This document shows positions 40,533 to 44,700 of a stretch of DNA of 64,000 nucleotides, piece after piece. Where the stretch lies: assembly GCA_030737835.1 (NCBI GenBank), contig CM060849.1, positions 20,940,074 through 21,004,073 on the forward strand. Reading direction: 5' to 3'. The notes under the pieces were generated by a model. The model had not been told where the DNA came from. It did no database searches and saw only the letters and a program-made list of their open reading frames with translations. The position numbers and the translations under genes were made by a program. Positions within the stretch are counted from its first letter, which is position 1. Every line of letters starts with the position of its first letter. Origin of the DNA: Acorus gramineus. Taxonomy: Eukaryota > Streptophyta > Magnoliopsida > Acorales > Acoraceae.

Positions 40533-40636
40533 TCAAACCATCTCCCCGTGAGCTGGTGGTGCACCATCCCCCCTTGTGCTCCCAACCTCCCAAGACATCC
40601 TCTCTTCCACTGACGGGCTGAGAAGCTCCCTGGACT
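40533..40636 (-). pseudogene. Stranded original 3' coding tail of the minus-strand GLR gene
   Basis: Read on the minus strand after the second copy of the 8-bp target duplication (40629-40636). The reading frame of the GLR last exon would continue without a stop for 31 codons and end at TGA (40535-40533). The tail begins ELLSPSVEER and ends PPAHGEMV, a Ser/Pro/charged composition normal for cytosolic C-termini of plant GLRs. It is now separated from the gene by the 1140-bp hAT element and lies beyond the stop codon that the element supplies. Confidence 0.7.
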
Positions 40637-41776
40637 CAGTGGCGGCTTAAAGAATTTTCATAGATGGGGCTATTAAAAACATAATTTTTATAAAAAAAAT
40701 TTAAAATCTACTCTTACCACATATTTATAAAAAAAACATAAACTGTTTTTTTTTAAATAGAACAATTTACATTAATAAAAAATAAATCATAAAAGGAGGT
40801 CAAATATTTTCAACATATAAATTTTTATGATTGTTCTCAACGAGATTTCATAATTTGAAATCGTTGCATAATAATTTCATTATCAACATTATCGGCACGT
40901 CCAATCCATCCATATGTGATCAGCGTATCTGTCTGTGTGTAGGTGATTGAGGAGTTGGCGATGGAAAATAAAAATCCCAGTCTCACGATATGGTTTTTAA
41001 TGGATCCCGTGATAAAAAGGATTTATGAAACACTCAGTCCATTGCAGCTGTTTTGTAGTTCATATACTATGATAACATAATATATATTACGCTATCATTG
41101 TATGTGAATTATTATAGTGTATGACTTAAAAATTTATTATTTTTTCAGTGAAAAAAAAATACATTAATATATCTCAGTATATACTTCATTTCATATAACT
41201 ATGTTACTTCAATGGGAAAATATATGATTTTTTTAAATAAAATAAAAACGAATGTGAATTGCAATAGGGGTTGCATAGGGGCTGGACATTATTTTTCAAA
41301 ATAAAAAATTAGACGGGGTTTGGTTGTATAAATGGGCCTCTTGATATAGTTGTATACGGGCATCATGAATGACCCCACCACTTAAACACTGGTTTTGACA
41401 AATTTTTTCAACTATATTGGTTATTTTGCCTAATGAAAATGAGAGACTTGTGATTTTAAGAATACAAACTGGATATATTGTAATTTGAGATCATCACTGG
41501 TACTCTTTTCTCAAAATAAAATGAACAACTATGTCATTCTAAATTGATTAGATTGGGGCTATGCTGTGCAACAATTTCTCATATTTGTTAACCCTTCCAT
41601 CTGTGTCTCTTCCAAAGAATGACAACATGAGAATAATGTTTTCTTCTCTAAATTAATTGATCATTTCACGTATACATGTATACATTAGTGCCATATGTTT
41701 TGTTCTTTAGTTTTTGTTTTTTTAATTTTGATGTGGTCAATTGACCCCCACCCCTAACAACCTAGAGCTGCCCCTG
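40637..41776. mobile_element. Non-autonomous hAT element inserted in the GLR last exon
   Basis: 1140 bp. It starts CAGTGGCGGCT and ends AGCTGCCCCTG, imperfect terminal inverted repeats (9 of 11 matching) of the CAG...CTG type known for hAT. It is flanked by a perfect 8-bp duplication CCTGGACT at 40629-40636 and 41777-41784, the size expected for hAT. The interior is AT-rich with no transposase frame. Its right terminal repeat encodes, on the minus strand, the last four residues and the stop codon of the GLR protein. Confidence 0.85.
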
Positions 41777-44700
41777 CCTGGACTGCCCTGAAACGCTCAC
41801 GAAACTCCGCAAACCATCATCGTCAATCCTTCTACTCTCGATCTCCACAACATGATCAGGGCCCGCATCGAAAAACTTACCATCCACAAAGGTTGGGGTC
41901 CTCCTCATACTCGGATGCGGTTTGTCATAGTGTCTAGACACCGCGACGAGACTTTGCCAGACCGAATCGCCAGAAGCCATCGCCTTCATTTCATCCCAGT
42001 TTTCTTTCATGTACAGAATAATCGAAACCAAGAGAGCAAGAGTTGTAGTCAAGCCCGTGATCAAGAAGAGGCCCCAGAAGCTGCGGAAGCTTATCCCGGT
42101 CGCGCGTCCTCCTCCTCCATCTGCGCCGCATGTGGTCAGGTTACCGAACCATTTCTTTTCATTTCGGATCATGCCATCTCCTTGTGTCACATTCAAGATC
42201 GCCCTTGACACATCCCCCACCAATGGTGATCCCCTTGGAAACACCTGCCCAAGAATGGAGCTCACATTCAAGATTTTATCAGGTTTCATCAGTATCTAAT
42301 ATTGATATATATATGGCTTACGAATCCGTAGCCGTCTGCCCTGTAAGTGGGTCCGATCATCATGTAGTCGGAGCAATGCTTCGCGAGGAAGATCTTTATG
42401 TACGGCATCTCGTCGAAGAGGGCGTCGATCCCGCCTTTCGCGGTGCCTTTGGAGAGTGCATCGACGTAGTCGTCAATGGTACTGTACGGCCTGAGCTTGG
42501 ATTCATGGAAGCCGATGCGCTTTAGTAGATCAGCGATGTAGGAGCCCTCTTGGTAACCGACGTTTTTTCCTTGGTTGATGAGCTCCTTCACGTCGGAGAC
42601 CGTCGGTCGGAGCTTTTGGACAGTCAGCATGGATGCCAAGCTCGCGGTGTAGCTGGATGTGAGGATCAGCACGAAGAACAACCATATGATCACAACCAAC
42701 CTTGAAAGGTTGCTCAACACCTTCTCTCCTAGAGTAAGACATATTGAAGTCATATCAATCAATGTGAGATCGTTTGGAATAATCAATTGTTAAATTGATT
42801 CTGATTCCATAAAACCAATTTTCAGATAATTGATTCCAGACATTATTTTCCGAAACTATAGAATTTGGTTAAAAAAATATGATTATATGTAAAAAAACTG
42901 GTTGAGAGTAACTTTTAGTCTAAAATTGAGAAGGTTGTCACGGAACTGTGAGTGAAGAATAGCGTGGAGAAGGAGAAGTAAAAGATGGTGCCGAACTGCT
43001 TGGAGGGGTCGCCCCGGAACTCCTCGTTGATGCGGTGTTCGATCAGCCACACCACGAAACCCGTGTAGAAGAAGAAGGCGAGGCTAATTACCCACAGATC
43101 CGTCGTCAGGGGCTTCAAGAAGATCCACGCGTTCTTCCTCTCATCGGATTTGATCGGGACGATCATCGACACCCCTGATTCGGTGTACGGAAGCGTGAAA
43201 TCCACGTACCGCGATCGATTTTCGACTATGGTCGTATCGGCGACCACAACATCGAAATTCTATCAAATCAAAGCATATAATACACAAAATGAGTATAAAT
43301 CCACCCCCCTTTAGAACTAATTTTTGTTGGAATATGCAAATAAGAGAAGAATTCCATGAATAATGGAAAGTTGAAAAAAAAGAAGTTATTAGTTTATTAT
43401 AATTATGGGATCCCATGATTATATTTACACTTATTTTTTCATATTTATGAATACATTTTATGCATACATGATCATAGATAACAATGGGAAACTTTATTAG
43501 AGTTTTTTTTTTTTTTTAACGTAGTTTTACAAAAGTGCGCGCGTTCTCTTTGTATTTATTTTCATGAGAGGTGTAATGTCTTATAAACACCAACAAGTGA
43601 TATGAGAATTACATTAAATTTTTATTTTTATTTAAAAACAAAAAGCTATCAGTCAATTTTTTTTATAAAAATCAAAATCTATCTCTAAAGACTAAAATCA
43701 CTTATTATCTTAAAAAATTGGTTTCACATAAGCTAAATCAGTTCGACAATTATTTTCAAAGGTGCCATAGATTCAAAGTTGGAGGGACTTACACCAAGAA
43801 AAACTTGGTACACCATGTCGTTGTACGTGCCGGCGCTCGTCCTATCCGGCCTCGCGAAGGGAACGAATTCGTAAGGGACGGCGTACGGCAATGACTGCAT
43901 AACTTCCTTAAATACGTCGATGCAGTATCCGTCGACGGTGGTCATGTTCGTGTCATTGTCCCACCCTACCTCAACGAATTCATTAAACCCGTGTTTCACC
44001 GGAACTCCCACCCTCAATTTCTTCCCGCTCGTCGGCACGACCCATCCCTTCGGCACGGCCCACGACTCCCCGGGCCATACCACAAGTCCAACACGAGTCC
44101 CCGGCGAGTCCAATTCCCTCGACAACCCGTTCGCCTGAGTCCAGAACCCGATCCCCCTCCCCCCTCGTCCAACGACGTTCAAAATTTCAAAAGCCGACGA
44201 CTGCAATTGCCCCCCGACGATTCGGAATTCCCCGCTCAGCCCGACGAAACTAGTCCGCCGCATCGCGTCGAGAAGCTCCGCCCCCCTCTCAGAGACACCC
44301 ATCGTCTCCAAATCAGTCGACCCATTCACGGGCTTTGCGAACCCGAGCCCGGTCCGCCCGACCTTCTCGGCCGCCACCGCCACCGCCTGAACCGTGTCAT
44401 GCGCCCAAAGCGCGAAGACGCTCATGTCAGCTGATTCAACGCCCGGGTTCTCCCTCCGGAACCTCTGCTTCCACCGCGCCGTGAATTCCTTCAATTCCCT
44501 CGTCCGCGGCACATAGGGCCTAACGCCGAGCACTCCTTGCATGGAATAGATCATCGAATCGTCGAACGAGTCGAGCAAGTTGGTCAGCCCGTCCGAAACA
44601 ATCCAAGCGTAGCCCTCGTTCAGCATCCCCGCCTCCCTCGCCTTTAAGAAGACGCGACCCCCGTTGGAGGAGGACATGTGGACTACGAAGACCCGGGTCT

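Follow-up and report, generated by a model that had tools for sequence, protein, structure and literature searches.

A non-autonomous hAT element in the last exon of an Acorus gramineus GLR gene supplies the stop codon of its reading frame and strands the old tail

The closest described parallel comes from the maize Ds/Ds1 elements. In the accessible part of the published account, Ds1, a member of the Ac/Ds group, begins with a stop codon and has splice sites close to its ends, and in one class of Ds1 transcripts the stop is provided by the element (PMC5432752). The locus described here, the final exon of a GLR gene on the minus strand that we call GLR-A, resembles Ds/Ds1 in its 8-bp duplication, in the small non-autonomous hAT element and in a stop codon met as soon as the element end is read from the gene. 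However, here the insertion arose naturally, the host exon is the last one of a receptor gene, and the terminal repeat is different. On the receptor side, the accessible text on Arabidopsis GLR3.3 reports that its 83-residue tail is required for wound signalling and that the FL residues in the middle of the tail are essential in both GLR3.3 and GLR3.1 (PMC9828246). Tailless GLR3.3 is likewise a plant GLR with an unchanged channel and a shortened cytosolic tail, but it was engineered, belongs to clade 3 and lost the whole 83-residue tail (PMC9828246), whereas GLR-A lost its last 31 residues, kept the membrane-proximal part and is not clade 3-like. A wheat 5-formyltetrahydrofolate gene with a miniature transposon-like element in exon 6 is similar in having a small element in a coding exon, but differs in the element, the gene and the position, as far as the accessible text describes it (PMC6824096). 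In the titles and starts of abstracts listed, with few subscription journals among them, we found no report of a transposon inserted into the final exon of a GLR, and literature matches to the terminal repeat were mostly noise. The insertion in GLR-A is a clear natural case of a known type of event, in a receptor gene.

The stretch of DNA analysed here, referred to as the window, is 64 kb long (C3:20940074-21004073) and belongs to an assembly of 398.6 Mb in 137 contigs (G000). Within it, GLR-A encodes 930 residues over five exons, whose junctions were picked by homology and open frame rather than from transcripts. In window coordinates on the minus strand, exon 1 (47259-47541) contains the protein start and the start of the amino-terminal domain, exon 2 (43793-45099) the ANF_receptor region and the first part of the ligand-binding domain, exon 3 (42947-43259) the first part of Lig_chan, and exon 4 (42322-42728) the Lig_chan stretch with M3. 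Exon 5 as now read (41762-42244) holds the end of the ligand-binding domain, M4 and a 78-residue tail followed by QGQL. Pfam matches were found to ANF_receptor (PF01094, E 1.7e-77) and Lig_chan (PF00060, E 1.1e-16 and 7.4e-9), and exon 4 carries SYTASL, in agreement with the M3 consensus SYTAxL given for GLRs in the accessible text of PMC11479355. The best match among solved structures is AtGLR3.4. Exon 5 of GLR-A does not have the DMSTA stretch of AtGLR3.4, which is present in four of the five loci L031-L035 and reads DLSTA in the fifth. Consequently, GLR-A is not clade 3-like, and it may belong to GLR clade 2. The one blemish noted in the gene is the poor donor of exon 3 (window 42935-42950, minus strand), GTTCCG, where GLR-B has GTAAGA and the closest paralogue, on contig C6, has GTCAGT. 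With a plant splice-site consensus, from which all splice scores here derive, this donor scores -1.62 against 2.59 for the C6 paralogue, and weak splicing of exon 3 or an alternative junction is possible.

At least five GLR genes, GLR-A among them, are clustered within about 60 kb of contig C3, with A on the minus strand, B and C on the plus strand, and D and E on the minus strand; the cluster spans 40533-47541 (minus) and 56126-61513 (plus) of the window, plus the loci L009-L012. GLR-B and GLR-C are nearly identical in exons 4-5, and further matches to GLR exon 5 lie on C6 at 13.228-13.268 Mb. Downstream of GLR-C there are plus-strand copies of exon 1 (L010 3872-4126 and L011 2563-2802), 92% and 82% like exon 1 of GLR-B, possibly from partial genes. 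Elsewhere in the window, 53375-54317 (minus) contains retroelement polyprotein remnants, with Pol_BBD just above the cut-off and a CX2CX4HX4C stretch, picked out by eye, that resembles a finger and for which the Pfam C2H2 match is below the cut-off. The frames at 37717-39521 (plus) have a response-regulator receiver match below the Pfam cut-off (26.3 of 30.2 bits) and may belong to the end of a histidine kinase gene. Dense direct and inverted repeats, with arms of up to 272 nt, occur at 8270-9751 and have relatives at 49785-50153.

The element in GLR-A is 1140 bp long (40637-41776, 29% GC) and lies in the reading frame of exon 5. On either side is a copy of the target-site duplication CCTGGACT, the near one (41777-41784) within the Q-S-R codons of ...VSGQSR and the far one (40629-40636) on the 3' side of the gene. 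Read on the minus strand, the exon runs ...FVSVSGQSR and continues into the element as CAG GGG CAG CTC TAG, which adds the four codons QGQL (41765-41776) and then an in-frame TAG (41762-41764) made of element nucleotides 13-15 from the gene side, the sole stop of GLR-A. Past the far duplication, the same frame continues as ELLSPSVEERMSWEVGSTRGDGAPPAHGEMV, 31 codons in all (40536-40628), to a TGA at 40533-40535. The preliminary description had placed the duplications, QGQL-TAG, the 31 open codons and the TGA at these positions, and all of them hold. The G+C content is 60% across the 93 nt of the stranded tail and 28% over the 150 nt that follow the TGA, a drop that looks like the end of a coding stretch.

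The ends of the element, CAGTGGCGGCT and CAGGGGCAGCT, match at 9 of 11 bases and form short terminal inverted repeats beginning with CA, a usual end of plant hAT elements. A strict scan of the 64-kb window for CAG[TG]GGC[AG]G ends flanked by a perfect 8-bp duplication returned a single pair. When the ends were relaxed to CA/TA..TG/TA with 8 or more matches in 12, 33 pairs appeared, whereas 20 simulated windows together gave 107, or about 5 each; of the 25 pairs listed, most have A/T-rich duplications. Because such pairs are common, an 8-bp repeat alone is no proof of insertion. What proves it is the dispersal of the same sequence in the genome, in copies that have the same end bases and 8-bp duplications of their own. 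A search of the element against its own genome, in which the best 40 of 2972 candidates were scored, gave at least 56 matches with the GLR-A copy included, a count that takes pieces of single copies separately and includes four short matches to an internal palindrome. Given the number of candidates scored, the family is larger than the matches listed. Seven other long copies were examined, all 83-89% identical, and four of these (L002, L004, L007 and L008) have an exact 8-bp duplication. Their CAG...CTG ends are intact in L002 and L004 and worn in L007 and L008. There is no exact duplication in L003, where 7 of 8 bases agree by eye, or in L005 and L006, each of which is missing part of one end. 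The claim of an exact 8-bp duplication around a hAT insertion is thus borne out by the genome copies as well as by the site itself. Six of the seven copies keep the end that faces the GLR exon, which reads CTAGGTTA in those copies and CTAGGTTG in GLR-A, and all six have TAG at nucleotides 13-15. The TAG is therefore a property of the family, and a host frame that enters the element in this orientation and phase is closed after four codons. No frame of the element reaches 65 amino acids; the element is a non-autonomous member of the hAT superfamily.

The history of the tail can be read from a paralogue that does not have the element. The exon 5 protein of GLR-A matched 16 places in its own genome, with all 16 candidates scored. 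The window itself was the sole near-identical match (99%), so no second GLR-A allele is seen in the assembly. The next match, at C6 13240351-13240788 and 63% identical, is a complete exon 5 without the element, in the closest paralogue of GLR-A (G000:C6:13240788-13240249, minus strand, L022/L037). The tail of this C6 paralogue reads ...DDDGSRSAVSVHDPRSGEFPSPTTDGGSTSGEASPAHVELVVVRG, and its protein alignment with GLR-A is continuous across the insertion point and includes GSTRGDGAPPAHGEMV. It has a single uninterrupted target, GGTCCGGG, as the counterpart of the duplicated AGTCCAGG, and it ends four residues past the end of the stranded tail, at a TGA that is preceded by 12 extra nt and aligned with the old TGA. 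In DNA, the stranded part scored 42 against the paralogue tail, and none of 1000 shuffles did as well (best shuffle 28). Two controls, exon 2 of the paralogue and its reversed tail, gave scores of 23 and 12, which 104 and 983 of 1000 shuffles equalled. The local DNA match takes in about 55 of 104 nt, at the stop-side end, and the alignment is gapped nearer the junction. In protein, compared with the 80 C-terminal residues of the paralogue and with 5000 shuffles per frame, the old frame gave p 0.0022 and the other two frames 0.64 and 0.83.

Since the DNA and protein matches run through the junction to an aligned TGA, we regard it as settled, on grounds of homology, that the 31 stranded codons are the old tail of GLR-A. 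The tail of the C6 paralogue, used here from the same genome, matches the stranded codons and does not end at the present stop. The preliminary description had proposed that a 31-residue tail was exchanged for four transposon residues and that the old tail was kept beyond the element. The first proposal is supported by the element-free paralogue, which continues through the junction, and the second by the homology of the 31 codons and TGA to the end of the paralogue tail. We are nearly certain of the insertion and of this replacement of the tail. The opposite view would be that the stranded frame is a chance one and that GLR-A always ended near its present stop. The same frame is open in 26% of shuffles of the same composition and its codon-usage score is marginal (p 0.055), so that, taken alone, the open frame and codon usage are weak evidence for an old tail; the typical GLR tail composition that had been claimed is no evidence for it. 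Two of the paralogues also have short tails: the tail after M4 measures 67 residues in B and C, the length in GLR-C being taken from its likeness to GLR-B. However, D and E have 110 and 115 residues, and the restored GLR-A has 110 by the same count, while the alignment with the closest paralogue crosses the junction and reaches the same stop. A chance frame is contradicted by the C6 alignment and the shuffle tests, and we give it hardly any weight.

Other comparisons say little about the tail. The distal 31 residues of GLR-A show no likeness beyond chance to the tails of B, D and E; these distal tails are also unlike each other and consequently neither support nor refute the old GLR-A tail. 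Among PDB sequences, similarity is lost at or just after M4, at query residue 78 for AtGLR3.4 and by residue 91 for the animal receptors among the matches listed, and these sequences therefore provide no test of the tail. Scans of genome_contigs and viral_contigs for plant relatives gave no confirmed match.

Our preferred explanation, which as a whole (insertion, tail history and short receptor) we put at a probability of about 0.85, is that a non-autonomous hAT transposon entered the last exon of GLR-A after its split from the C6 paralogue, in an orientation and phase that would let the element end be read as four codons and then the element's own TAG. In the encoded receptor the insertion would leave the ligand-binding domains, the pore and M4 as they were, the cytosolic tail would be shortened from about 109 to 82 residues (78 old ones plus QGQL), and the old last 31 codons and TGA would lie silent beyond the element. 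Beyond the insertion, the target duplication, the frame and the homology of the stranded tail, all of which are demonstrated by the comparisons above, we infer that the transcript would be translated to the TAG and that the membrane-proximal tail, a stretch common to the C6 paralogue, would still serve. What is lost is the distal end, which changes fast, and a mild effect would therefore be the likeliest guess. An AATAAA in the element (41133-41138, minus strand), 624 nt past the present stop, may act as a new poly(A) signal, while two AATAAA motifs (40357-40394, minus strand, from 40394 and 40362) lie 139 and 171 nt past the old stop, in what may be the old poly(A) region, and 1368-1400 nt from the present stop. 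In plants, 3' UTRs above 300-350 nt can trigger decay, according to the accessible text of PMC4417159. The new 3' UTR, at least 624 nt long, is above this range, so lowered GLR-A mRNA through nonsense-mediated decay is a real possibility. On balance we lean slightly towards the short protein as the main working product of GLR-A.

The rival explanations concern the product of GLR-A, and not all of them are exclusive of the preferred one. One is that GLR-A is becoming a pseudogene, in which the insertion, the weak exon 3 donor (GTTCCG, -1.62) and nonsense-mediated decay, with a 3' UTR of at least 624 nt where the decay trigger in plants is put at 300-350 nt (PMC4417159, accessible text), would leave little or no receptor, and the frame would still be open because these changes are recent. 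The age of the insertion is relevant here. Over 956 consensus columns, the element copy in GLR-A has 51 substitutions and 9 deleted columns of its own, and its branch measures 0.068, a maximum for the time elapsed since the element arrived. Neutral simulations over 0.05-0.068 (400 each, substitutions only) led us to expect about 4-5 stops in the 2790-nt coding sequence, which has none; the probability of its having none would be 0.005-0.007. The stranded tail would keep its open frame with P of about 0.85 and both duplications would remain identical with P 0.32-0.44. An insertion close in age to the branch would make the intact 930-codon frame a sign of selection after the element arrived, whereas with a much younger one the frame says little about selection. 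As the branch length gives no more than a maximum age, the case for selection after insertion stops short of proof. Over 747 core codons (exon 1 left out; dS 0.68), dN/dS to the C6 paralogue is 0.24, and it is 0.46 in the retained tail (71 codons) and 0.53 in the stranded tail (24 codons). With dS at 0.68 and the branch at 0.068, these ratios probably reflect mostly the time before insertion. Rates of protein change relative to the C6 paralogue are divided: with D as the outgroup GLR-A is faster (65 to 36 changes, chi2 8.3), which would suit decay of the gene, but with E there is no clear difference (51 to 44, chi2 0.5). While a pseudogene path draws on the donor, the UTR and one of two outgroups, 930 codons without a stop or frameshift would be unlikely had the gene been neutral for the element's whole branch, and the core dN/dS of 0.24 also speaks against it. 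We consider this path unlikely.

Another rival is that the element is removed as a cryptic intron, giving GLR-A more than one tail. A strong donor-like GTAAGT lies inside exon 5 (41875-41880, minus strand) and is specific to GLR-A, the paralogue having GATAGCAAGC at this place. It is the best-scored donor between 41990 and 40650 (9.52), and the next (8.46) is inside the element. Acceptor-like AG sites occur at the left end of the element (40646-40671, minus strand; exon start at 40669 or 40645), and no acceptor scored between 41700 and 40540 exceeds the one at 40669 (6.33). The resulting intron would be 1211 or 1235 nt long and 69% A+T, like three of the real GLR-A introns (66-74%), and Ds1, another hAT element, is described with donors and acceptors near its ends in the accessible part of PMC5432752. 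The join 41880-40669 would give ...PTFVD-APSMKIL-stop, whereas 41880-40645 would give ...PTFVD-AATESR-ELLSPS..., with the whole old 31-residue tail back in frame. However, the acceptors that return to the old frame are weak: 40645 scores 0.87, and those at 40609 (1.4) and 40552 (0.97) keep only part of the old tail. The 40645 join would also delete 33 residues of the retained tail, and all of these scores come from a plant consensus applied to sequence. We judge splicing of the element improbable, and more doubtful still its conditional form, in which GLR-A would yield two receptors, the short one with a transposon end and another that has regained the old distal tail.

Excision of the element is a separate route to the old tail, and the preliminary description held that the gene could revert in this way. 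Excision of hAT elements usually leaves a footprint. In a model with up to 4 bases lost on each side, footprints that add a net 0, 3 or 6 bases keep the old tail, which is the part of that claim that stands. However, most modelled footprints shift the frame: 8, 5 or 2 added bases lead to another tail whose end is ...CVYLFIRDY, and 7, 4 or 1 to one whose end is ...SRGDGLM, and the untrimmed 8-bp footprint is among those that give a different tail. Simple reversion is therefore unlikely, and the model predicts that excision would seldom restore the old tail.

The type of event seen in GLR-A is already known and not new. If the conditional intron were true, a transposon would have created a two-tailed receptor. 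Under the preferred reading of a short receptor, GLR-A has its distal tail gone and its membrane-proximal tail kept, and an uncut paralogue is present in the same genome. Together, GLR-A and this paralogue would make a clean system for the function of the distal tail, in which the tail that was lost can still be read.
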